A DNA stretch of 64,000 bases from Aestuariivivens insulae (GTDB lineage: Bacteria > Bacteroidota > Bacteroidia > Flavobacteriales > Flavobacteriaceae): NCBI RefSeq assembly GCF_022662195.1, contig NZ_JAKMCS010000002.1, positions 186,001 to 250,000 on the forward strand. Reading direction: 5' to 3'. Of the stretch, positions 18,695-36,498 are shown one piece after another. Position numbers and translations under genes: made by a program. The notes below the pieces were generated by a model. That model worked only from the letters and a program-made list of their open reading frames with translations, was not told the DNA's origin and searched no databases. How positions within the stretch are numbered: the first letter of the stretch is position 1; each line of letters starts with the position of its first letter.

Positions 18695-18697
18695 GTT

Positions 18698-18820
18698 GGT
18701 TATCTATCTTCAGGTGCTGAATTGACCGTTCAGCATAAAGTAGAATTTAGCACCTTCTCTATAAGTAGAGGGTTGCTAAGGTTTCACAGGGTCTAATCCC
18801 TCCACCTTTCTTGATAACAT
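18698..18820 (-). ncRNA. SAM-I (S-box) riboswitch
   Basis: Read on the minus strand, the segment contains the S-box core: GUUAUCAAGAAAGGUGGAGG, then CCCUGUGAAACCUUAGCAACC, then a GGUGCUAAAUUC stem. The 3' end (GAUAGAUAAC) closes the P1 helix with the 5' GUUAUC. It lies 114 bases upstream of metY and should switch the whole metY-metXthrA-metZ operon off when S-adenosylmethionine is plentiful. Limits are set from the P1 arms. Confidence 0.93.
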
Positions 18821-24415: not shown

Positions 24416-25690
24416 CTAACTCGGAAACTTCTCCCTAATCTTATCTAAACACAAGTTATGGATACTACCTGCATGGGTGTGCTTTTTAGAGGTATCCGGC
24501 ACGTAAGTTCCGTCCTGTACCTGCCCTCCTATTTTTTGGTAAGCTTCCCTAAAAGTTTGCCCTTCTACCACTAAGGTATTGATGTTATCTACCGTAAATA
24601 AATACTTATACAAATCGCTGTTGATGTCTATATCCTTAACAATGGCCCGCTGGATGGAGTAATTGAAAATATCAAGGATATCCTTAATTTCTTCGAAAGC
24701 AGCAATCATGTTTTCTTTCAATAACTGGTAATCCCTATGGTAACCACTTGGCAAATTATTGGTAATTAATACCATTTCACTTTGTAAGGCCTGTATCTTA
24801 TTGCACTTGCCACGAATTAACTCAAACACATCGGGATTCTTTTTGTGGGGCATGATGCTACTGCCGGTCGTTAATTCATCGGGAAAAGAAATGAATCCGA
24901 AATTCTGGCTCATATACAAACAAACGTCCATCGCAAAGCGCGCCATGGTGTTGGCCAAACTTCCCAAGGCTGCCGAAATGGTACGCTCATTTTTACCGCG
25001 TCCCATTTGCGCGGCCACCACATTATATTTTAGGGTTGCAAAGTCCATTTCTTTAGTTGTAAACTCGCGATCTATTGGAAATGAACTCCCGTAACCTGCT
25101 GCCGATCCCAACGGATTCTGGTCGACGGTTTTTATAGCGGCATCCAATAAAAACACATCGTCGATCATTAACTCGGCATAAGCAGAAAACCATAGACCAA
25201 AAGACGATGGCATAGCGACTTGTAAATGGGTATACCCTGGCAATACCTTATCTTTATAAACTTCGGCCTGATCTAATAAGGTTTCAAAAAGGGTCTTTAC
25301 TTTTTCCCTTACCAGGCTTAAGTTTTCTTTGTAATATAAATGACAAGCGACTAAAACCTGATCGTTTCTAGAACGTGCCGTATGTATCTTTTTACCAACA
25401 TTGCCTAACGTTGTGGTTAGCTCGTATTCTATTTTGGAATGTACATCTTCAAACTGTGCATCGATAACAAACTCACCAGCTTCAATTTCATTTTCCAACA
25501 CCTGTAAACCGCCTAACAATTGCTCTAATTCAATGGTGGTTAGAATACCTATCTTATGTAACATTTTAGCATGTGCCTTAGATGCTATAACATCGTATTT
25601 GGCAATATGGATATCTATTTCCCTATCGTTGCCTACTGTAAATTGTTCTATTTTTTTATCGATTGATATGCCTTTGTCCCAGAGTTTCAT
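24416..25690 (-). CDS. argH: Argininosuccinate lyase
   Basis: The 424-residue protein carries the fumarase/lyase signature GSSIMPHKKNP near residue 275, plus HTARSRNDQV and GYTHLQVAMPSSFGLW. It splits argininosuccinate into arginine and fumarate, the last pathway step. It is the last gene of the arginine/proline operon, separated from the argE-like gene by 256 bases that hold three palindromic repeats. The length is somewhat below the usual 450-460 but typical of Bacteroidota. Confidence 0.95.
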   Translation of the reverse strand: MKLWDKGISIDKKIEQFTVGNDREIDIHIAKYDVIASKAHAKMLHKIGILTTIELEQLLGGLQVLENEIEAGEFVIDAQFEDVHSKIEYELTTTLGNVGKKIHTARSRNDQVLVACHLYYKENLSLVREKVKTLFETLLDQAEVYKDKVLPGYTHLQVAMPSSFGLWFSAYAELMIDDVFLLDAAIKTVDQNPLGSAAGYGSSFPIDREFTTKEMDFATLKYNVVAAQMGRGKNERTISAALGSLANTMARFAMDVCLYMSQNFGFISFPDELTTGSSIMPHKKNPDVFELIRGKCNKIQALQSEMVLITNNLPSGYHRDYQLLKENMIAAFEEIKDILDIFNYSIQRAIVKDIDINSDLYKYLFTVDNINTLVVEGQTFREAYQKIGGQVQDGTYVPDTSKKHTHAGSIHNLCLDKIREKFPS

Positions 25691-25705
25691 CTATTTATTT
25701 TTATT

Positions 25706-25730
25706 TGTCATTCCCGTGAAAACGGGAATC
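25706..25730. repeat. Palindromic repeat upstream of argH
   Basis: TTCCCGTGAAAACGGGAA is an inverted repeat preceded by GTCA. It belongs to the same type as 13842-13866 (TGACATTCCC family). Confidence 0.6.
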
Positions 25731-25750
25731 TTATTATTTTGCTATCTTTT

Positions 25751-25779
25751 AATGGATTCCTGCCTACGCAGGAATGACA
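25751..25779. repeat. REP-like repeat, copy 1 of an identical pair
   Basis: A 29-base sequence containing GATTCCTGCCTACGCAGGAA is repeated exactly at 32989-33017. The core CCTGCCTACGCAGG is palindromic. Both copies lie in arginine-operon spacers. Confidence 0.85.
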
Positions 25780-25861
25780 GGATCGTTAAACGATAACCTG
25801 ATTCAACAATTCAATATAAATTTTTAATTCTTAAAAATTTAGAATCAAGATTATAGCCCAC

Positions 25862-25889
25862 TTACTTCGACAAGCTCAGCACAAGTGGC
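25862..25889. repeat. Repeat with TTCGACAAGCTCAGCAC core in an argE-argH hairpin
   Basis: AGCCCACTT and AAGTGGCT flank the TTCGACAAGCTCAGCAC core and can pair. A larger inverted repeat AGAATCAAGAT / ATCTTGATTCT encloses this at about 25850 and 25930. Confidence 0.6.
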
Positions 25890-25946
25890 TTTTAGAATAA
25901 AGACTGGATTTATATCTCGGTTCTAATATCTTGATTCTTGGTTCTA

Positions 25947-27014
25947 CTATAATATTACCCGTTTCAACAGTTCTATATATAGTTCTATGCCTTCTTCTAT
26001 TTCGTTTAGATAAATAAATTCATCTGCCGAATGTGAACGCGTACTGTCTCCTGGCCCTAACTTTAACGACGGACAACTTAATACCGCCTGATCGGATAGG
26101 GTTGGTGAGCCATAGGTTGTTCTTCCCATAGCAACGCCTGCTTTCACCAAATCGTGATCCATAGGAATGGATGACGAATTTAAGCGCAAGCTTCTTGGTT
26201 TAATGCTCGTACATGGTGATTGGGCCTGTAAAATCTCGGCGATTTCCGCATTGGTATAGGCATCGTTTACACGTACGTCTATTACCAAATCTACATGACC
26301 TGGCACCACATTATGCTGTGAGCCTGCATTGACCTGCGTTACGGTTAGCTTTACATCGCCTAAAGCTTCAGAGCCTTTTTCAAATTTAAAATCTTTAAAC
26401 CATTGTAACACATTTATGGTATTATAAATGGCATTATTATCGTTAGGGTGTGCCGCATGGCTTGGTGTTCCTGCTACCACTGCATCGAAAACCACCAATC
26501 CCTTTTCGGCTACCGCTAAATTCATTAGGGTTGGCTCGCCTACTATGGCCACATCTACCTTAGGGATGATGGGCAACATACTGTTCAGTCCGTTAGGGCC
26601 ACTGCTTTCTTCTTCGGCAGAAGCGACAATAACCAGATTGTATTTTAAATCTTTGGTATTATAGAAATAAGTAAAGGTTGCGATAAGGGATACCAGACAT
26701 CCTCCGGCATCGTTACTTCCCAAACCGTATAATTTACCCTCTTCTACAATGGCTTTAAACGGGTCTTTGGTGTAGGCACTGTTTGGCTTAACGGTATCGT
26801 GATGCGAGTTTAACAACAGGGTTGGTTTACTGGCATCGAAATATTTATTTAATGCCCAAACATTATTTTGTGTGCGTTTATAATCAATATCATAACGCTT
26901 AAACCAAGCTTCTATATGCAACGCGGTTTGGTCTTCTTCTGAAGAAAAGGACTGGGTTTCTATTAATTGTTTTAATAGATCGATCGCATCATTAGTTAAT
27001 TCTTGTGGCGTCAT
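25947..27014 (-). CDS. M20 family N-acyl-citrulline/ornithine deacylase (ArgE-like)
   Basis: The 355-residue metallopeptidase has NSHHDTVKP with the metal-binding His/Asp, GSNDAGGCL, and the AEEESSG general-base segment. A DVRVNDAYTNAEI dimerisation region and a final HSADEFIYL with a ligand His follow. In this pathway, where carbamoylation acts on acylated ornithine, the likely substrate is N-acetyl- or N-succinyl-citrulline rather than acyl-ornithine. Its stop lies one base from the argB start, so the genes are coupled. Substrate is inferred from argF'. Confidence 0.86.
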   Translation of the reverse strand: MTPQELTNDAIDLLKQLIETQSFSSEEDQTALHIEAWFKRYDIDYKRTQNNVWALNKYFDASKPTLLLNSHHDTVKPNSAYTKDPFKAIVEEGKLYGLGSNDAGGCLVSLIATFTYFYNTKDLKYNLVIVASAEEESSGPNGLNSMLPIIPKVDVAIVGEPTLMNLAVAEKGLVVFDAVVAGTPSHAAHPNDNNAIYNTINVLQWFKDFKFEKGSEALGDVKLTVTQVNAGSQHNVVPGHVDLVIDVRVNDAYTNAEIAEILQAQSPCTSIKPRSLRLNSSSIPMDHDLVKAGVAMGRTTYGSPTLSDQAVLSCPSLKLGPGDSTRSHSADEFIYLNEIEEGIELYIELLKRVIL

Positions 27015-27015
27015 A

Positions 27016-27792
27016 TTATAAGGTTATCGTTGTAAAATTATCATTTTCTTGGGTTAGCATGGATGTATTCCCCATATTTATACTGGACACGCCATGATGC
27101 AAGGCATCGAAACAATTTTCTAGTTTAGGAAGCATGCCATCGGCAATAATACCTTGCTCCAACAATTCACCATATAATTTGGCATCGATATGCTTAATGA
27201 CTGAATTCTTATCGTTTATATCTTTTAAAACACCATTCAATTCAAAACAATAGTAAATGGATGTTTCGTACAAATGGCTCATGCCTATGGCAATTTGCGA
27301 GGTGATGGTATCGGCATTTGTATTTAAAAGTTGCCCTTTACCATCATGGGTGATAGCACAGAAAACTGGTGTGAAATTGGCCGCTATTAATTTATTTACG
27401 GCATGATGGGCTACCGATTTCACATCGCCCACAAATCCAAAATCGACATCTTTTACTGGGCGTTTGTCTGAAGTGATGCTATTCGCATCGGCCCCTGTTA
27501 AACCTATAGCATCTACATTTAAGGCTTGCAGTTGGGCTACAATATTTTTATTTACCAACCCACCATAAACCATGGTAATGACTTCTAAGGTTTCGGCATC
27601 TGTAATACGTCGTCCGTTAACCATTTGGGATTCTATCCCTAATTTTGAAGCGATATGGGTAGCGCGCTTACCGCCACCATGTACTAAAATTTTCTTTCCT
27701 TCTAGGTTTGAAAACAATTTTAAAAACGCTTGCAAAGCTGATGCATCTTCAATAATGTTTCCTCCTATTTTTACTATGGATAGTTTTTCCAT
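27016..27792 (-). CDS. argB: Acetylglutamate kinase
   Basis: The 258-residue amino-acid kinase starts with IVKIGGNIIEDASAL and has LVHGGGKRATHIASKLGI, VNGRRITDAETLEVI and GLTGADANSI motifs. It phosphorylates the N-acyl-glutamate produced in the first step. The N-terminal extension seen in arginine-inhibited hexameric forms is absent, which suggests the dimeric, arginine-insensitive type, so transcript control may matter more here. Confidence 0.94.
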   Translation of the reverse strand: MEKLSIVKIGGNIIEDASALQAFLKLFSNLEGKKILVHGGGKRATHIASKLGIESQMVNGRRITDAETLEVITMVYGGLVNKNIVAQLQALNVDAIGLTGADANSITSDKRPVKDVDFGFVGDVKSVAHHAVNKLIAANFTPVFCAITHDGKGQLLNTNADTITSQIAIGMSHLYETSIYYCFELNGVLKDINDKNSVIKHIDAKLYGELLEQGIIADGMLPKLENCFDALHHGVSSINMGNTSMLTQENDNFTTITL

Positions 27793-27806
27793 ATATCATT
27801 TAATTT

Positions 27807-27879
27807 GTCATTGGAACATCAACGAAGTAATCTGTTTCCTGTGAAGAGATTGCTTCAATCGTGCCTCATTCGCAATGAC
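27807..27879. repeat. Long imperfect palindrome between argF' and argB
   Basis: GTCATTG (27807) pairs with CAATGAC (27879), and GAAGTAATCT with AGATTGCTTC, giving a 73-base hairpin-like element. It is a dispersed-repeat type common in this phylum and has no coding frame. Confidence 0.65.
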
Positions 27880-27888
27880 GTTCATTTC

Positions 27889-28830
27889 TTAATTATTACT
27901 TTCCAATATGTTTTTCAACACTAATTGTGCCGCGTAGGTCCTATTATTGGCTTGTTGAATCACAATAGAGCTATCGCTATCTAAAACGGCATCTTCAACA
28001 ATAACATTGCGTCTTACCGGCAAACAGTGCATGAATTTAGCATCTCCCAATTTCTCTTTAGTAATCATCCAATTGGGGTCTGTATTTAATACTTCCCCAT
28101 AGTCTTCATAACTGCTCCAGTTTTTCACATACACAAAATCGGCATCCTTAAACGCTTCTTCCTGATTGTGAATAACCGGTGTATCGCCTACAATTTCTGG
28201 AGACAGATTATAGCCTTTAGGATTTGTGATTACAAAATCCACATCCATTTTTTGCATGGCTTGAGTAAAGCTATTGGCTACGGCATGTGGCAATGCCTTT
28301 ATATGTGGCGCCCAGCTTAATACCACTTTGGGCCGTGCTTTTTTGGCGTGTTCTGAAATGGTAATCGCATCGGTTAAGCCTTGTAAGGGGTGTCCTGTAG
28401 CACTTTCCATATTCACAAGAGGTACAGATGCATATGCCTTAAAGGCGTTTAACACCTCTTCACTTTCGTCTTTTGCCTTATCGGTTAAGGTTGGAAATGC
28501 CCTTACCGCAATAATATCGCAGTATTGCGACACTACGGCTGCTGCTTCTTTGATATGTTCGGCCGTATTCCCGTTCATTACGGTGCCATCGCCAAACTCT
28601 ATCCCCCAGGCATCTCCCGAAACATTCATCACAATGGGGTTCATCCCCAAATTTAAAGCCGCTTTTTGCGTACTTAAGCGCGTACGCAAGCTAGAATTAA
28701 AGAATAACAAACCAAGGGTTTTGTTACGCCCTAACTCTACATGTTTTAAGGGATCCGACTTTAATGCTTTTGCGTCCTCAATCCAAGAATTGATGTCATC
28801 TATATCATGTATGGAGGTGTAATGTTTCAT
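27889..28830 (-). CDS. argF': N-acyl-ornithine carbamoyltransferase (N-succinyl/N-acetyl type)
   Basis: The 313-residue transcarbamylase has the carbamoyl-phosphate motif SSLRTRLST (residues 46-54) and the HCLPVRRN loop characteristic of the acylornithine-specific branch. Ordinary ornithine carbamoyltransferases carry a different SMG-type substrate loop. The family residue known to choose acetyl (Glu in Xanthomonas) or succinyl (Pro in Bacteroides fragilis) ornithine seems to fall at Ala90 (GNTAEHI), so the acyl group is undecided. It lies between proB and argB. Confidence 0.9.
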   Translation of the reverse strand: MKHYTSIHDIDDINSWIEDAKALKSDPLKHVELGRNKTLGLLFFNSSLRTRLSTQKAALNLGMNPIVMNVSGDAWGIEFGDGTVMNGNTAEHIKEAAAVVSQYCDIIAVRAFPTLTDKAKDESEEVLNAFKAYASVPLVNMESATGHPLQGLTDAITISEHAKKARPKVVLSWAPHIKALPHAVANSFTQAMQKMDVDFVITNPKGYNLSPEIVGDTPVIHNQEEAFKDADFVYVKNWSSYEDYGEVLNTDPNWMITKEKLGDAKFMHCLPVRRNVIVEDAVLDSDSSIVIQQANNRTYAAQLVLKNILESNN

Positions 28831-28864
28831 TGTTTGGTCTTTATTTTAAGGCTGTCTTGAAATT

Positions 28865-28879
28865 GTCATTCTGAATGAC
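28865..28879. repeat. Short palindrome GTCATTCTGAATGAC in the proB-argF' spacer
   Basis: This perfect 15-base dyad around a central base lies next to an AAGACAGTCTT dyad nearby. Together they form small hairpins in the 93-base spacer. Confidence 0.5.
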
Positions 28880-28923
28880 AAAACAAATCACTTATAAGAC
28901 AGTCTTGATTCATTTTTTAATCT

Positions 28924-29685
28924 TTATTTTATTTTTGTAAATGGTATTTTATTGTCGATCGCATTCAAAATAAAATTATCCTCTAAACCATTTACTATCC
29001 AAGTTTCAATATTTGCTTTTTTGGCTACCGCAGCTGCCTCTATTTTAGACTGCATTCCACCGCTGCCGTGTGATGATTTTGAATTAACAACCTCTCTTTG
29101 TAATGCTTCAAAATCTTCAACAAGTTCTATCGTTTTTGGTGTGCCATTTTCCATAGACTCCTTGGTATAGATCCCATTGGTATTGGTTGCGATAATGAAC
29201 AAATCGGCTTTCAACAAAGAAGCGGTTAACGCACCCAATTTGTCGTTATCGCCAAACTTAATTTCATCGGTTGCCACGGTATCATTTTCATTGATAATAG
29301 GAATGTAATTGTTATTGACCAATACATTAATGGTATTGACAATATTGGTCTTACTTTCCTTTTTTTCAAAATCGGAATAAGATAACAAACACTGCGAAGA
29401 CAATAAGCCATATTCCCTAAAAATTTCCTGATAGATCCTTATCAAGTGTGGCTGTCCTATAGATGCCAAGGCCTGCTTTACAAAAACTTCTTTTTGCTTA
29501 CTCTCCAACTTTACAAACTGTTTAGCTACGGCTATAGCTCCCGAACTTACAATAACAAACTCATGCGTATCTTGAAGCGCTGCAATCTGACTTGCTATAT
29601 CTTCAATTTTACCTCTTGAGATATTATTGGTCTCTTTGGTAAGGGTATTGGAACCGACCTTAAGTAATATACGTTTTTTCTTCAT
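28924..29685 (-). CDS. proB: Glutamate 5-kinase, PUA-less
   Basis: The 253-residue amino-acid kinase has LLKVGSNTLT, VSSGAIAVAK, NENDTVATDEIKFGDNDKLGA and SHGSGGMQSKIEAA motifs. It makes glutamyl-5-phosphate in proline synthesis. The C-terminal PUA domain of the E. coli enzyme is missing, so the form is the short one. It follows proA within the arginine operon, 113 bases downstream. Confidence 0.95.
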   Translation of the reverse strand: MKKKRILLKVGSNTLTKETNNISRGKIEDIASQIAALQDTHEFVIVSSGAIAVAKQFVKLESKQKEVFVKQALASIGQPHLIRIYQEIFREYGLLSSQCLLSYSDFEKKESKTNIVNTINVLVNNNYIPIINENDTVATDEIKFGDNDKLGALTASLLKADLFIIATNTNGIYTKESMENGTPKTIELVEDFEALQREVVNSKSSHGSGGMQSKIEAAAVAKKANIETWIVNGLEDNFILNAIDNKIPFTKIK

Positions 29686-29765
29686 CTATTTAAAAACTTA
29701 ACCAACTTAATAAAATTAGTCTTTAATCTTTATTGATTAGCACCAGCTTATTTCTTAGATGCCTA

Positions 29766-29793
29766 TTACCCGCCTTCCGACAGGCAGGTGGCT
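29766..29793. repeat. Palindromic repeat between proA and proB
   Basis: Read on the minus strand, ACCTGCCTGTCGGAAGGC matches the element at 62238-62260 (ACCTGCCTGCCGGCAAGGC) in 15 to 16 positions, so the family occurs at two loci 32 kb apart. Confidence 0.65.
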
Positions 29794-29798
29794 TCATG

Positions 29799-30995
29799 CT
29801 ACCGTATTTGTCCGTTACCGTGAACATACCATTTATTGGTCACCAAATGCTGCAGCCCTATAGGCCCGCGTTGGTGTAATTTATCGGTACTAATCGCCAA
29901 TTCGCCTCCAAGTCCTAATTGCCCGCCATCGGTGAAACGGGTTGAGGCGTTATGGTAAACCGCTGCCGTATCTACATTTTCCATAAACACTTTGGCCGAT
30001 GCTTCATTAGTCGTAATGATAGACGACGAATGTCCTCCAGAATATTTGTTAATCATGGCAATGGCGTCTTGGGTCGAGTCGATTTCTGCTATTGCAATCT
30101 TATAATCCAAAAACTCTTCATACCAAATGTCATTGGATTTGATAGCTTCGACGTGGTTAAATTTTGATAAAGCCTCATCACCTAAAATCTGGACATCAAA
30201 GGTTTTCAGTTTGGAGATTAAGCTTTTAATGAAATCTTCTTTATTTGGCAAATTCTTATCGATAAGCACTTTATCCAAAGCATTACACGCCGATATTTTA
30301 GCTGTTTTGGCATTAATAATAACGCTTGAAGCAATATCCAAATCGGCTTCTTCGTGAACATACACAAAGTTATTGCCACGGCCACTAACAATAACCGGAC
30401 AGGCAGCATGTTGCTTTACAAAAGCAATCAAACGTTCGCCACCTCGTGGCACTATTAAGTCGACTTGCTGTGTTGGTTTTTCCAAAAAGGCCTGGGTTTC
30501 GGTTCTGTTAAACTGCAAATACTCTACCCAATCTGTTGATGCACCATAAGCTTTTAAGGCCTCGTGCCACAATTCAACGATCTTTAAATTAGAATTGGTA
30601 GATTCTTTTCCCCCTTTGAGTAAGATTTTATTCCCCGATTTAAAGGCAATACCAGCCGCTTCTACGGTAACATCAGGGCGTGATTCATATATAATCAACA
30701 CCGTACCAAACGATGCTGTTTTATTATAGATCTGCATACCGTTTTCATGCTTAAAGCTAAAGCGTTCAATACCCACGGGATCTTCTTGCGACGCCAAGTG
30801 GGTCACAGATTTTATCATTTCATCTACTTTAGCATCGTCTACCTTTAAACGATCGTACATTGAAATATCCGAACCATCGTAAGCCTCTACATCTGCTTTA
30901 TTGATCTTAATAATCGCAGCCCTTTCTTGTTCTAAAAGTGCCGCCATCTTAAGTAATACAGCGTTTCTTGTTTCAATTGATAATAAGGTATTCAT
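29799..30995 (-). CDS. proA: Gamma-glutamyl phosphate reductase
   Basis: The start ATG 30995-30993 (MNTLLSIETRNAVLLKMAAL) gives 398 residues; the open frame reaches 31040 but those codons are not family-like. The protein is an aldehyde-dehydrogenase-fold enzyme with ESRPDVTVEAAGIAFKSGN, LIVPRGGERLI, the catalytic Cys in KISACNALDKVLI, and a C-terminal GGQLGLGGELAISTDKLHQRGPIGL. It reduces glutamyl phosphate to glutamate semialdehyde with NADPH. Its neighbour upstream is argD. Confidence 0.95.
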   Translation of the reverse strand: MNTLLSIETRNAVLLKMAALLEQERAAIIKINKADVEAYDGSDISMYDRLKVDDAKVDEMIKSVTHLASQEDPVGIERFSFKHENGMQIYNKTASFGTVLIIYESRPDVTVEAAGIAFKSGNKILLKGGKESTNSNLKIVELWHEALKAYGASTDWVEYLQFNRTETQAFLEKPTQQVDLIVPRGGERLIAFVKQHAACPVIVSGRGNNFVYVHEEADLDIASSVIINAKTAKISACNALDKVLIDKNLPNKEDFIKSLISKLKTFDVQILGDEALSKFNHVEAIKSNDIWYEEFLDYKIAIAEIDSTQDAIAMINKYSGGHSSSIITTNEASAKVFMENVDTAAVYHNASTRFTDGGQLGLGGELAISTDKLHQRGPIGLQHLVTNKWYVHGNGQIR

Positions 30996-31049
30996 GTTAT
31001 TTTTATTTTTTGTTTTGAAGCCCCAATATCGAGACTTCATAAATTTTCC

Positions 31050-32180
31050 CTAAGCCTTCAATACGTCGTTGAGAGCTTCAAAAAAGACATCTATATGTGA
31101 TTCTTGAAGGGTTAGTGGTGGAAGGATACGCAATATATTTGGATTTTTAGCGCTTCCTGTAAATATGTTGTGTTTGAAAATTAGTGCTTTTCTCAAATCT
31201 GCAATTGGGAAATCAAATTCCAATCCCAGCATCAAACCACGGCCTTTTACTTGTTTTACTTCTGGAATGGCTTGGGTTTTTTCTATAAAATAAGCCGATA
31301 TTTCCTTAGCATTCTGCATGAGATTTTCGTCCTCCATCACCTCCAAAACAGCTAGTGCAGCAGCACAGGCTAGGTGATTCCCTCCAAAAGTGGTGCCTAA
31401 CAAACCAAAGGATGCCTGGATATTAGGGTGGATTAATATCCCACCTACAGGAAACCCATTCCCCATACCCTTAGCCATGGAAATAATATCGGGTGCTATC
31501 CCGTGCTTTTGAAAAGCGAAGAAATCGCCAGTACGACCATAGCCACACTGAATCTCATCGGCTATATACAAAGCACCATATTGCTTACATAAGGCACTTA
31601 GTTTTTGGTAAAAATCGGTTGAAGCTTCATCCAATCCCCCTATACCTTGGATGCCTTCTACAATAACTGCACAAACATCCCCTGTTTTTAAAGCTGATTC
31701 CACGGCTTCAACATCCCCTAAATCAGCAAAAATCACTTCTTGTTGCGCATTGATTGGCGCTATAATTTTGGGGTTATCGGTAGCCGCTACAGCTGCCGAT
31801 GTACGTCCGTGAAACCCATTTTTAAAGGCTATCACTTTTTTATTTCCCGTATGAAACGATGCCAGTTTTAAAGCATTTTCATTGGCTTCGGCTCCAGAAT
31901 TGCATAAAAACAAGTGGTAATCCTCACAACCTGAAAGCTTACCTAACTTATCGGCCAAGGCTACTTGTAACGGGTTTTGAATGGAATTACTGTAAAACCC
32001 CAAATGCTGCACCTGTTCACTTACTTTAGAGACATAGGTTGGATGTGAATGTCCTACGGAAATCACAGCATGCCCCCCATAAAGATCAAGGTATTTTGTT
32101 CCTTTGTCATCATAAACCCAAACATCGTTGGCTTTTACGGGAGTAACATCATATAATGGATAAACGTCAAATAATGGCAT
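31050..32180 (-). CDS. argD: Acylornithine aminotransferase
   Basis: From ATG 32180-32178 (MPLFDVYPLYDVTPVKAND) the protein has 376 residues; codons up to 32225 overlap proC and are not used by relatives. It shows class-III aminotransferase motifs: NSGAEANENALKLA, DEIQCGYGRTG, and the PLP lysine in SMAKGMGNGFPVGG. It transaminates N-acyl-glutamate semialdehyde to N-acyl-ornithine. The proC stop lies one base before its start, so the two are coupled, pairing a proline gene with an arginine gene. Confidence 0.94.
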   Translation of the reverse strand: MPLFDVYPLYDVTPVKANDVWVYDDKGTKYLDLYGGHAVISVGHSHPTYVSKVSEQVQHLGFYSNSIQNPLQVALADKLGKLSGCEDYHLFLCNSGAEANENALKLASFHTGNKKVIAFKNGFHGRTSAAVAATDNPKIIAPINAQQEVIFADLGDVEAVESALKTGDVCAVIVEGIQGIGGLDEASTDFYQKLSALCKQYGALYIADEIQCGYGRTGDFFAFQKHGIAPDIISMAKGMGNGFPVGGILIHPNIQASFGLLGTTFGGNHLACAAALAVLEVMEDENLMQNAKEISAYFIEKTQAIPEVKQVKGRGLMLGLEFDFPIADLRKALIFKHNIFTGSAKNPNILRILPPLTLQESHIDVFFEALNDVLKA

Positions 32181-32181
32181 T

Positions 32182-32976
32182 TTAATTCTTTTTAATTTGA
32201 TTAATTTTTTCAAATGAAGCCACAATACCTTGTATTAAAGCCGAGCTTAAGCCTTGGTGTTCCATAGCATTCAATCCTTCAATGGTACAACCGCTTGGTG
32301 TGGTTACCCTATCTATTTCCTGTTCTGGGTGTTTACCGGTTTCTATTAATAAACTGGCCGCCCCATAACAAGTCTGAACTGCTAATTGGTGTGCTTCGTG
32401 CGCTTCAAACCCTAATTGGATAGCGCCTTGCGTTGTAGCACGTACCAAACGCATCCAGAATGCAATACCACTGGCACAAATAACCGTAGACGCTTGGATG
32501 AGTTCTTCTGGAATAACCAATGTTGTTCCCAACTGGTTAAATATATCCTGTGCTAAAGCCACCTTATCTTGGGCAATCCCGTTAGCCGCAATACAGGTCA
32601 TGGATTTACCAATAGAAATGGCCGTATTGGGCATTACGCGAATAATGTTTTTATCGCTTCCTATAATACCTTCTATTCTAGGAATTTCTACGCCTGCTGC
32701 TACCGAAATGATAATGTGCTTATTGGTGATTTTAGACGACACAATTTCCAACACCTTATCGATATGTTTGGGTTGCAATGCGAATATGACCATATCGGAC
32801 TGTTCCACGGCCAAAACATTATCATTCGTCACAGTAACGTTATCCAAGGCCTGGTAAGCATCTACATGTACCGTATTCTTGTCACTTAGATATAAAGAGG
32901 TAAACGTATTATTTTTTATAAGTCCCTTGGCTATCGAACTTCCTAAGTTACCTGTTCCTATAATGGCTATTTTCAT
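32182..32976 (-). CDS. proC: Pyrroline-5-carboxylate reductase
   Basis: The start is ATG 32976-32974 (MKIAIIGTGNLGSSIAKGL), giving 264 residues with the Rossmann motif first. An apparent longer start at 33018 reads through a REP-like repeat (peptide SFLRRQESI) and should be rejected. Conserved VRVMPNTAISIGKSM and VTTPSGCTIEGLNAME segments identify the family. It completes proline synthesis from glutamate together with proA and proB in the same operon. Confidence 0.95.
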   Translation of the reverse strand: MKIAIIGTGNLGSSIAKGLIKNNTFTSLYLSDKNTVHVDAYQALDNVTVTNDNVLAVEQSDMVIFALQPKHIDKVLEIVSSKITNKHIIISVAAGVEIPRIEGIIGSDKNIIRVMPNTAISIGKSMTCIAANGIAQDKVALAQDIFNQLGTTLVIPEELIQASTVICASGIAFWMRLVRATTQGAIQLGFEAHEAHQLAVQTCYGAASLLIETGKHPEQEIDRVTTPSGCTIEGLNAMEHQGLSSALIQGIVASFEKINQIKKN

Positions 32977-32988
32977 GATATATATTTT

Positions 32989-33017
32989 AATGGATTCCTG
33001 CCTACGCAGGAATGACA
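32989..33017. repeat. REP-like repeat, copy 2 of an identical pair
   Basis: This is identical over 29 bases to 25751-25779. It fills the argC-proC spacer just before the true proC start and misleads start prediction. Confidence 0.85.
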
Positions 33018-33023
33018 AATAGT

Positions 33024-34025
33024 TTAAAAATAAGTTGCTTTTAAGTTTAGCCCTGTGGTTTCCTCCAGACCAAACATTAAATTCATATTCTGGACGGCTT
33101 GTCCAGAGGCACCCTTCAATAAATTATCTATAACACTTGTTATTAACAATTTACCATTGTGCTTATGCAAATGTATTAAACACTTATTGGTATTCACCAC
33201 TTGCTTTAAATGCAAAGCTTCATCTGATACAAAAGTGAATGCCGCATCTTTATAAAAATCATTATAAAGTGTTTTAGCCTCTTCAACGGAACCTTCAAAA
33301 TCGGTATAGAGTGTTGCGAAAATACCTCTTGAGAAATTCCCCCTATTGGGCATAAACAAAATATCGGATGAAAAGCCGTTTTGCAATTGCTTAACCGACT
33401 GGTTGATCTCCCCTAAATGCTGATGCGTAAATGGCTTGTAATACGAAAAGTTATTATCGCGCCACGTATAATGCGTGGTTGCCGACAACGAGGTTCCAGC
33501 CCCAGTAGCTCCTGTAACCGCATTGATGTGTACGTCGTTATTTAACAATCCCGCATTTGCCAATGGCAACAAACCTAACTGAATAGCGGTAGCAAAACAC
33601 CCAGGGTTTGCAATGAAATTAGCATCTTTAACGGCTTCCCTTTGTAATTCCGGCAATCCGTAAACAAAGGTCTTTGCTTGTACTGAACCTGTTGAAGTGA
33701 AGACTTTATCAGCTTCTAACCTAAAATCATTTCCTAAATCGATAATCTTCGTTTTATCGGAAAACGTATTCGCCGACAAAAACTTTACAGAATTTCCATG
33801 TCCAAGACATAAGAATAGAACATCAATATCTGGATTCACCGTATCGGTAAACTCTAAATCTAGAGAACCTACCAAGTCCCCATGTACCTTACTTATTTTG
33901 TTTCCTGCGTTGGATGTACTGTACACAAAATTAATTACTGCATTTGGGTGATTGATCAATAATCGAATCAGCTCCCCCGCCGTATATCCTGCACCTCCAA
34001 TAATTCCAACTTGAATATGTTTCAT
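33024..34025 (-). CDS. argC: N-acetyl-gamma-glutamyl-phosphate reductase
   Basis: The 333-residue protein begins with VGIIGGAGYTAGELIRLLINHP and has the active-site Cys in NPGCFATAIQLGL and the DLGNDFRL segment, all typical of ArgC. It reduces acyl-glutamyl phosphate to the semialdehyde. It is 59 bases downstream of argG, across a strong perfect hairpin at 34045-34077. Confidence 0.95.
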   Translation of the reverse strand: MKHIQVGIIGGAGYTAGELIRLLINHPNAVINFVYSTSNAGNKISKVHGDLVGSLDLEFTDTVNPDIDVLFLCLGHGNSVKFLSANTFSDKTKIIDLGNDFRLEADKVFTSTGSVQAKTFVYGLPELQREAVKDANFIANPGCFATAIQLGLLPLANAGLLNNDVHINAVTGATGAGTSLSATTHYTWRDNNFSYYKPFTHQHLGEINQSVKQLQNGFSSDILFMPNRGNFSRGIFATLYTDFEGSVEEAKTLYNDFYKDAAFTFVSDEALHLKQVVNTNKCLIHLHKHNGKLLITSVIDNLLKGASGQAVQNMNLMFGLEETTGLNLKATYF

Positions 34026-34084: not shown

Positions 34085-35260
34085 TTAAGAGTTTACTTGT
34101 TGATATATTTTATTTTGGTTGCCGAATATTTTAATAAATCCTTTTGCCTCATCTGCTGTCCAGCCTTTATTCTCTTCACCATAGCTACCAAATTTAGCAC
34201 TCATTAAATCGTGCTCTGACGAAATACCATCCAATGTAAAGTGGTATGGTTTTAAACTTACCGTAACATCGCCACTTACCTTATCTTGACTGCTTTGCAA
34301 AAAGGCTTCCATGTCGCGCATCACTGGATCTAAATACTGTCCCTCATGTAAGTGCATGCCATAGAAACTTGCAATGTACTCTTTATGTTGTAACTGCCAT
34401 TTAGTAAGTGTATGTTTTTCTAACAAATGGTGTGCTTTAATGGTAATTAAAGCTGCTCCAGCTTCAAAACCAACGCGCCCTTTAATACCTACAATGGTAT
34501 CTCCCACATGAATATCCCTGCCAATAGCATAAGCCGAAGCCAGATTGTTTAAGGTTTCGATATTTATTTCTGGGTCGTTTTCAATACCGTTTACAGCAAC
34601 CAACTCTCCTTTTTCAAATGTTAACTTTACCTTTTCTTCTTCGGTATGTTTTAATTGCGACGGGTAAGCCTCACTTGGTAATGGTTTTTCGGAAGTTAAT
34701 GTCTCCGAACCTCCAACGCTGGTTCCCCAAAGCCCCTTATTAATCGAATATTTTGCTTTTTCCCAGGACATATCAATCCCATTGGCTTTTAAATAATCGA
34801 TTTCTTCCTGACGAGTTAATTTTTCGTCCCTAATGGGCGTAATAATTTCTATTTCTGGAGCCAAGGTTTGAAAGATCATATCGAAACGTACTTGATCGTT
34901 TCCAGCCCCAGTACTTCCGTGTGCAATATATTCTGCCCCTATACTCTTGGCATATTCGATAATCTCGATGGCCTGAATAATACGCTCTGCACTCACCGAT
35001 AATGGATAGGTATTATTCTTTAAAACATTGCCAAAAATTAAGTACTTCACCACTTTTTGATAAAAGGTAGCTACTGCATCTATATTTTTATAGGTAGTAA
35101 CTCCCATTTTATACGCATTGGCTTCTATCTTATCAATTTCTGCCTTGGTAAAGCCTCCTGTGTTAACGCTTACTGCATGTACATCGTATTCTTTTGATAA
35201 ACTTACTGCACAGTACGATGTATCTAAACCTCCACTATAAGCTATTACTAATTTTTTCAT
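34085..35260 (-). CDS. argG: Argininosuccinate synthase
   Basis: The 391-residue protein has the ATP-binding PP-loop AYSGGLDTSYCAVSL at the N-terminus, HGSTGAGNDQVRFD, and GIDMSWEKAKYSINKGLWG. It joins citrulline and aspartate. It follows the GNAT gene by 7 bases as the second gene of the operon. The sequence belongs to the argininosuccinate synthase form common in Bacteroidota. Confidence 0.94.
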   Translation of the reverse strand: MKKLVIAYSGGLDTSYCAVSLSKEYDVHAVSVNTGGFTKAEIDKIEANAYKMGVTTYKNIDAVATFYQKVVKYLIFGNVLKNNTYPLSVSAERIIQAIEIIEYAKSIGAEYIAHGSTGAGNDQVRFDMIFQTLAPEIEIITPIRDEKLTRQEEIDYLKANGIDMSWEKAKYSINKGLWGTSVGGSETLTSEKPLPSEAYPSQLKHTEEEKVKLTFEKGELVAVNGIENDPEINIETLNNLASAYAIGRDIHVGDTIVGIKGRVGFEAGAALITIKAHHLLEKHTLTKWQLQHKEYIASFYGMHLHEGQYLDPVMRDMEAFLQSSQDKVSGDVTVSLKPYHFTLDGISSEHDLMSAKFGSYGEENKGWTADEAKGFIKIFGNQNKIYQQVNS

Positions 35261-35267
35261 CTCAATG

Positions 35268-35888
35268 TTACTTTTTGTCGTTTTTCTTTAAAAACATGGT
35301 TTCCTTGATATGTTTCAATCGATTAAAAACCTTTTCTTTAATTAATTTATGTTTCTTTTTTTCTTTTACCTTAGGATCATATAACATCCCCGTACACAAA
35401 CACATTTTTCTGTTGGTACGTGTTAACACATCATAATTTTTACAGGTTTGGCATCCATCCCAAAAAGACTGGTCGTCTGTAAGTTCTGAAAACGGCACCG
35501 GTTTATATCCCAAATCACTGTTCATTTTCATTACCGCCAATCCCGTAGTGATACTAAACACTTTAGCATCTGGAAACTTATTTCTGGAATGTTCAAATAT
35601 TTTATGCTTTATCTTTTTGGCCAACCCTTTTCCCCTATAATCTGGATGGACAATTAACCCTGAATTAGCAACATATTTGCCATGCCCCCATTTTTCTATA
35701 TAACAAAAGCCTGCAAACTTATCGCCATCCAATGCTATAACGGCATTACCGTTTTCCATTTTTGTTGCAATGTATTCTGGTGTTCGCCTAGCTATACCTG
35801 TACCTCTTACTGTAGCAGATTCTGCAATGGTTTCGCAAATAATTTCTGCGTATTTAATATGTGATGTATCGGCTATTACAACCTTCAT
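35268..35888 (-). CDS. GNAT acetyltransferase, candidate N-acylglutamate synthase of the operon
   Basis: The 206-residue protein has a GNAT motif A (NSGLIVHPDYRGKGLAKKIK) and starts the arginine operon, where pathway logic needs an enzyme acylating glutamate. No other argA/argJ candidate is in the cluster. Unusually, a C-terminal extension carries a cysteine group (DGCQTCKNYDVLTRTNRKMCLC, CxxC and CxC) and a lysine-rich tail, which could bind a metal. Its leader encodes Arg-rich mini-ORFs. The synthase role is inferred from position. Confidence 0.75.
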   Translation of the reverse strand: MKVVIADTSHIKYAEIICETIAESATVRGTGIARRTPEYIATKMENGNAVIALDGDKFAGFCYIEKWGHGKYVANSGLIVHPDYRGKGLAKKIKHKIFEHSRNKFPDAKVFSITTGLAVMKMNSDLGYKPVPFSELTDDQSFWDGCQTCKNYDVLTRTNRKMCLCTGMLYDPKVKEKKKHKLIKEKVFNRLKHIKETMFLKKNDKK

Positions 35889-35972
35889 TTCCCTATCTGT
35901 ATTAAGTTCTTTAATCGTTCTTTTTAAACTGCTGAACTGGACTCACCTAGCTCTATAAACTATTACACACCC

Positions 35973-36002
35973 TTACGGGCGACGGGGAAAATAATGGCGC
36001 AT
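35973..36002 (-). CDS. Possible second leader mini-ORF (MRHYFPRRP)
   Basis: ATG CGC CAT TAT TTT then CCC CGT CGC CCG TAA gives nine residues with three Arg codons. It lies 85 bases before the operon's first gene and shares CCGTCGCC with the longer leader peptide. Too short to assert as coding. Confidence 0.25.
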   Translation of the reverse strand: MRHYFPRRP

Positions 36003-36110
36003 AGTATTACTGTTAATGGTTAGATTAACTCTATTTTGAAATGCTATGATGAAATTTTTGGACAATTTGAAAAAAATTAAAATTACGTTAGGTTTGTTCA
36101 TTAGAAGTCA

Positions 36111-36182
36111 TTAGAAACAGCGGCGACGGCGCGCTGGCAAACTGGGTATGGCCCTACGTATTTTATTTTTTAAATTTTTCAT
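36111..36182 (-). CDS. Candidate arginine leader peptide
   Basis: The 23-codon frame reads MKNLKNKIRRAIPSLPARRRRCF and contains six Arg codons, four of them consecutive (CGC CGT CGC CGC), in an otherwise AT-rich leader. It lies about 220 bases before the first gene of the arginine operon on the same strand. The start overlaps a preceding 11-codon ORF (TCATGA) that has an AAGGAG sequence. This is the form expected of an attenuation leader sensing Arg-tRNA. No clear terminator hairpin was found downstream, so the mechanism is open. Confidence 0.5.
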   Translation of the reverse strand: MKNLKNKIRRAIPSLPARRRRCF

Positions 36183-36498
36183 GATGTAAAACTATTAATT
36201 TTATTTAACATCATTAACCGGACTCCTTATTTTTTAGTGAGAATTAACAATATTGAACAAAAAAAAACTATTTGTTAAAAAATATTTAATGTTTATAGGC
36301 TACTTTTTGTATTTCATAAAAAACTATTGACAAAATAAACCTCATTTCACTTAACACACTCAATCCCACCAACCTAAAACACTAAAAATTATCAAATACC
36401 AGATTTAAGCCAAACCCATTAGTTTTTTAAAATTCCCCAATTATGTAAATCCTAAAAAAATATTCTTATTGGTTAATATTATATATTAGCTTATTCTT

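Follow-up and report, generated by a model that had tools for sequence, protein, structure and literature searches.

Tandem arginine-rich leader ORFs and a conserved RNA hairpin module upstream of the arginine operon of Aestuariivivens insulae as candidate ribosome-mediated attenuators

Organization of the arginine locus

The window analyzed here is a 64,000-nucleotide stretch of the genome of Aestuariivivens insulae (contig NZ_JAKMCS010000002.1, positions 186,001 to 250,000), and the arginine locus lies on its minus strand. The first gene of the operon (35268 to 35888) encodes a GNAT acetyltransferase (PF00583), which could catalyze the N-acylglutamate step, and is followed by argG, encoding argininosuccinate synthase (34085 to 35260; PF00764 and PF20979). 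The remaining genes (24416 to 34025), assigned from Pfam matches and ORFs, are argC, proC, argD, proA, and proB, those for a transcarbamylase, an argB-like kinase, and an argE-like M20 peptidase, and argH (25690 to 24416), which was named by inspection only. The Pfam assignments identify the genes downstream of the leader as genes of arginine synthesis. The host GNAT shares 91 to 92% identity with GNAT of Aestuariivivens, and the gene is carried by 200 of 299 genomes of the host family, Flavobacteriaceae. The arginine repressor ArgR (PF01316) is absent from the host genome, and only 1 of 199 genomes of the family gave a match, with a borderline score, in a search that detects ArgR in Bacteroides. 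Elsewhere in the window, a SAM riboswitch (RF00162, 76.8 bits) is located at positions 18697 to 18820 of the minus strand.

The region upstream of the GNAT gene, initially annotated at positions 35889 to 36200, was enlarged to comprise a putative promoter, two leader ORFs (ORF1 and ORF2), and two hairpins (P1 and P2). The initial annotation described a 23-codon ORF with six Arg codons, four of them in a row, 220 bases upstream of the first gene. This ORF (ORF1) is present on the minus strand, with 222 bases between its end and the first-gene start codon. A second mini-ORF with three Arg codons, also described there, exists as the 9-codon sequence MRHYFPRRP, but conservation shows it to be the tail of the approximately 30-codon ORF2 and not a separate ORF. 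Both mini-ORFs contain CCGTCGCC and are local GC peaks, as had been stated. Conservation of the Arg codons in relatives, set beforehand as a test of the annotation, was observed.

For comparison among relatives, 32 upstream regions were aligned, 112 were then examined, and 164 distinct regions were later assembled, 152 of which contain a recognizable element. In the common layout, an Arg run closes a leader ORF, and two hairpins come after it at a near-constant distance from the gene.

Putative promoter and ORF1

The sequence TAGTTTTA (36187 to 36194) was identified as a putative −7 element, for which the Bacteroidota consensus is TAnnTTTG (PMC7366714). Because this element ends 4 nt before the ORF1 start codon, the arg leader transcript is probably leaderless or nearly so. 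Among relatives, TAnnTTT[GA] occurs at positions −20 to −4 of the first leader ORF in 81 of 89 loci with ORF1, compared with 8 after shuffling, and at the same positions of ORF2 in 22 of the 37 loci that lack ORF1, compared with 7 after shuffling. With the motif directly upstream of the first leader ORF, that ORF is probably the first to be transcribed. A scan for sigma-70-type promoters and terminators was set aside as uninformative because its consensus is not that of Bacteroidota.

ORF1 (36111 to 36182) encodes the leader peptide MKNLKNKIRRAIPSLPARRRRCF, with 6 Arg codons among 23, including the four-Arg run CGC CGT CGC CGC (36120 to 36131). None of 2,000 dinucleotide shuffles of the leader yielded an ORF of 8 to 45 codons with at least 6 Arg codons and an RRRR run, which argues against a chance origin. 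A loose filter, which admits a few spurious cases, detected ORF1-like ORFs with a conserved Arg-rich end at 115 of 152 loci, and approximately 89 of them have a typical start. The fraction of synonymous differences in ORF1 is 0.41, compared with 0.27 expected, and it rises to 0.52, compared with 0.31 expected, in the C-terminal half; the other two frames show little or no synonymous excess. The comparison among relatives thus establishes ORF1 as a translated ORF with its Arg codons.

The early codons of ORF1 contain the 5′ arm of a predicted hairpin, H1 (AAAAAATAAAATACGT, 36156 to 36171), which pairs with positions 36070 to 36088. The latter segment, ACGTAATTTTAATTTTTTT, consists of the 3′ arm and a U-tract, is terminator-like, and lies directly upstream of the ORF2 start; the partner of the early ORF1 codons is the ACGUAAUUUUAAUUUUU stretch adjoining that start. 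A further stem in the predicted fold, H1b, is formed by GTTTG (36138 to 36142) and CAAAC (36092 to 36096), and inspection of the alignment by eye showed that the pairing is kept in relatives as GGTTT/AAACC and GAGTT/AACTC. The H1 duplex energy is −8.35 kcal/mol with the sequence's own partner; partner swaps gave −6.90 kcal/mol, and the best of the 20 reached −7.24 kcal/mol. The ORF1/H1 region is more stable than shuffled sequences, with a mean z of −1.3. A U-tract precedes ORF2 in 74 of 115 loci with ORF1, compared with 6 of 37 loci without ORF1 and 6 of 43 ordinary genes of the window, and it occurs in 67 of the 89 ORF1 loci with a typical start, compared with 23.5 expected. The association between ORF1 and the U-tract is thus established at the level of sequence comparison, and it suggests that H1 and the U-tract form a terminator-like hairpin that was acquired together with ORF1. 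This assignment is uncertain, since the H1 stem is A/U-rich and hence weak for a terminator. In addition, the outer arm of H1 lies upstream of the footprint of a stalled ribosome, so that stalling might not fully prevent H1 from forming. Together, these features suggest that ORF1 is a second arginine sensor in a large subset of loci.

ORF2

The second leader, ORF2 (35973 to 36065), has the sequence (TTG)SKNFIIAFQNRVNLTINSNTMRHYFPRRP-stop, with a start at TTG 36065, which is GTG or ATG in relatives, or alternatively at ATG 36101, and a C terminus of FPRRP-stop. In all 135 loci with a strict motif, no stop interrupts its frame over at least 20 codons upstream, compared with 25% and 19% for the other two frames; these loci are related and their counts are not independent, and the other frames of the same sequences served as the control. 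The fraction of synonymous differences is 0.46, compared with 0.25 expected, in the clade of the window and 0.43, compared with 0.28, elsewhere, and the excess is confined to the ORF2 frame. Over the 12 codons that precede the last Arg pair, Arg codons average 2.1 in the ORF2 frame, compared with 0.47 and 0.29 in the other two frames and 0.64 in shuffled sequences. The frame, synonymous-difference, and Arg enrichment tests indicate that ORF2 is translated together with its Arg codons.

ORF2 is commoner than ORF1 and is often the sole leader, in which case it is still Arg-rich and still directly behind the promoter motif. This distribution bears on the possibility that ORF1 is the only arginine attenuator and that ORF2 and the P1/P2 hairpins have another role, for instance in RNA stability, in pausing of RNA polymerase, or in a fixed coupling of translation. 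Such a division of roles would fit the ties between the U-tract and ORF1 and the lack of a terminator after ORF2, but it is unlikely given how widespread, Arg-rich, and promoter-proximal ORF2 is.

In 134 of 152 ORF2s, one codon separates the last Arg from the stop, mostly as RRP-stop. The TnaC leader also ends in Arg-Pro-stop, and ORF2 might likewise be a ligand-induced arrest peptide whose nascent chain senses free arginine or a related metabolite and arrests at Pro-stop. TnaC needs conserved peptide residues and a ligand, whereas in ORF2 the stop is displaced in 18 of 152 loci, the upstream peptide varies between clades, and Pro is replaced by Thr (RRT) in L085, L088, L106, and L107 with the P1 pairing intact. 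Since these replacements and displaced stops occur with P1 pairing kept, Pro and the stop are not essential. Although SpeFL (orf34) of Salmonella offers a precedent for a leader ORF responsive to arginine or ornithine (PMC6386406), an arrest peptide is therefore a very unlikely explanation of ORF2.

The P1/P2 RNA module

The end of ORF2 overlaps the first of the two hairpins. P1 (CGCCC-GUAA-GGGUG, 35968 to 35981) takes in the final Arg and Pro codons of ORF2 together with its stop codon, and the P1 pairing is retained in the variants CGCAC/GUGCG and CGCCC/GGGCG. P2 (GAGCU-AGGUGAGUCC-AGUUC, 35934 to 35953) has a near-invariant GGUGNGUCC loop. A P2 stem of at least 5 bp is present in 142 of 152 loci, with 29 distinct stems, compared with a mean of 87 and a maximum of 101 loci when 3′ arms were swapped (200 trials). 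The bulge adjoining the P2 stem has 0 to 3 nt, depending on the locus, and causes P2 to be misaligned, and covariation was therefore evaluated in a set with a uniform bulge. In this 35-sequence alignment, all six outer P2 pairs vary on both sides, which was matched in none of 500 shuffles, and P1 is nearly invariant. RNAalifold analyses of three groups revealed P1 and P2 as the only helices between ORF2 and the gene. These comparisons establish the P1 and P2 pairings.

The same data bear on two further explanations. One is that the Arg codons arose by chance in a GC-rich stretch, or that the element is a DNA operator, as P2 is also a DNA dyad. Chance is refuted as a whole explanation by the shuffles described above and by the conservation, frame, and covariation tests, and the variable bulge and covarying arms of P2 are as expected of RNA; either version is extremely improbable. 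The other is that P1/P2 is a riboswitch that binds arginine or another ligand directly, with the overlapping ORF being incidental or accessory. The near-invariant loop and the strong covariation do exceed the needs of a plain hairpin. However, those Arg codons that lie outside P1 and P2 show synonymous evolution and are enriched solely in the ORF2 frame, the module consists of just two short hairpins with no compact aptamer, and a search of Rfam 15 at both gathering and permissive thresholds gave no relevant match in the host leader or in those of 8 relatives. A riboswitch is thus quite unlikely.

Downstream of P2, no U-tract or intrinsic terminator was found, as the sequence is T-rich in 16 of 152 loci, and neither RNAalifold nor a comparison of linker/P2 pairing with a swapped control revealed a mutually exclusive antiterminator after ORF2. 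A candidate anti-P2 hairpin formed by the P1-P2 linker was unconvincing, with energies of −0.74 kcal/mol for the sequence's own linker and −0.60 kcal/mol for swapped ones (best swapped, −0.73 kcal/mol). A candidate pseudoknot between GGUG of the P2 loop and CGCC of P1 was dropped because the CGCAC variants retain the GGUG loop. The claim that the leader has the form of a ribosome-mediated attenuator holds insofar as an Arg-rich leader with conserved Arg codons precedes an arginine operon. The classical form is not supported: of the two leader ORFs, ORF1 alone is associated with a terminator-like hairpin and a U-tract, and the more widely conserved ORF2 is followed by P1 and P2, with neither a U-tract nor a detectable antiterminator.

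Classical attenuation seems to be present elsewhere in the host genome, since a His-rich leader, MNFIHTHHHFQTYAQAK, lies upstream of hisG (L227, G000:C33, mini-ORF at L227 positions 1189 to 1242), and behind it come a T-run and a GC-rich hairpin, AACCCGTTTGAGACAATCAAACGGGTTTTTT, a strong terminator in the form of a classical his attenuator.

Distribution among Flavobacteriaceae

A covariance model of the module, R1, detected one strong copy in the host genome (E value, 2.9e-15; next match, 3.4), which establishes it as single copy there. The module is present in 176 of 299 Flavobacteriaceae genomes, nearly always as one copy, and no convincing match outside the family was found in samples of the order and the phylum. 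Matches outside the family, with E values of 0.001 to 0.009, fell in terminators and a repeat array and were judged to be due to chance.

Several loci depart from the common layout. In L219 and L220, the usual GNAT was not found and another protein of approximately 195 amino acids comes first, with the module still located before the argG operon. L190 (Polaribacter) is among the few loci that keep the hairpins with fewer Arg codons. In L016/L197 and L037, the module lies farther upstream of GNAT and ORF2 extends through P1 (RRPLRV, RRPLGV). L051, L057, L068, L075, and L089 carry short inverted-repeat insertions between P2 and GNAT, such as ATTCCTGATAAAACAGGAAT. The genus g128, which is presumably Flavobacterium, has lost the module and retained GNAT. 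Its loci L224 and L225 have no P1/P2 upstream of GNAT and contain a mini-ORF, MNKISLHITSLSRTNSPITSPEVRTLSL or MNKISLHITSLSRTISPGTSPEVRMLSI, after a promoter-like TACTTTTG; with two conserved CGG codons, this mini-ORF is possibly a diverged arginine leader.

Proposed mechanism

The leader is best explained as a device for ribosome-mediated sensing of arginine, with tandem attenuators in series, to which a probability of about 0.8 is assigned; confidence in any specific output step is much lower. The single copy at the operon, the near absence of ArgR, and the his leader of the host genome speak in favor of this reading. Points against it are that neither a terminator nor an antiterminator was found after ORF2, the weak H1 stem, the few loci that keep the hairpins with fewer Arg codons, and the loss of the module from g128. 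Judging from the position of the promoter motif, transcription would start just upstream of ORF1. When charged tRNA-Arg is ample, ribosomes would complete both leaders and depart. H1 and the U-tract could then form behind ORF1, P1 and P2 would fold where ORF2 ends, and the arg operon would be expressed at a lower level. If charged tRNA-Arg runs short, we infer that ribosomes would stall at the Arg codons. A ribosome stalled in ORF1 would sit in the H1 loop and mask the inner stem, and one stalled in ORF2, on the Arg codons of the P1 5′ arm, would keep P1 from folding and leave the operon on. Since the 5′ arm of P1 starts at the last Arg codon and would thus be covered by a stalled ribosome, which in ORF1 would mask the inner part of H1, derepression upon starvation is the simplest reading; we likewise infer this direction of control and the action of H1 as a terminator. 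Candidates for the output of P1/P2 are RNA polymerase pausing, Rho, RNA decay, and translation.

More tentatively, and with odds somewhat below even, ORF2 and P1/P2 may represent a leader-peptide switch of a new class, one whose regulatory codons lie inside the hairpin that they control and whose output is something other than an intrinsic terminator. Such a switch might have become the main arginine control in much of Flavobacteriaceae after the loss of ArgR, with a terminator-type arginine leader later added in front.

Comparison with known systems and significance

The trp, his, and ilv attenuators share with the arg leader a short ORF in which codons for the amino acid made by the operon abound, its position at the transcript start and upstream of that operon, and an RNA structure placed so that ribosome position can control it. 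Unlike them, the arg leader has two tandem leaders, with the regulatory codons at the end of ORF2 inside the controlled hairpin; it also lacks an intrinsic terminator/antiterminator pair after ORF2, and the hairpin of ORF1 is A/U-rich. No description of arginine leader peptides in Bacteroidota or of P1/P2 was found in the open-access literature; a comparative study of attenuation reportedly published by Lopatovskaya et al. in 2010 might mention Bacteroidota.

Consecutive Arg codons also occur in orf34 of the Salmonella speF leader, where ribosome pausing alters mRNA folding (PMC6386406). However, the target of orf34 is ornithine decarboxylase, Rho and RNase G take part in the control, and both the sequence and the RNA are different (PMC6386406). 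In Staphylococcus aureus, the leader ORF rbfL senses arginine limitation via pausing at Arg codons, but there, a rare AGG codon is used, pausing makes the ribosome-binding site of a biofilm regulator inaccessible, with repression upon starvation as the result, and a hairpin pair of the P1/P2 type is not part of rbfL as described in that account (PMC13009471). Within the same bacterial family, leader-peptide attenuation of amino acid operons has been proposed for Flavobacterium psychrophilum (PMC9723704), and those leaders, like the module, lie upstream of amino acid operons. With regard to the novelty suggested initially, attenuation by amino acid leaders had already been inferred there, although the main text of that report does not name arginine.

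The arg leader offers a clue to the way in which arginine synthesis may be regulated where ArgR is missing. It contains a conserved RNA that Rfam 15 lacks and that lends itself readily to experiment, and it presents a natural arrangement of two leader-peptide sensors, one after the other, on a single transcript. It would also open attenuation to direct tests in Bacteroidota, a phylum in which promoters and the initiation of translation are unlike those of Escherichia coli.
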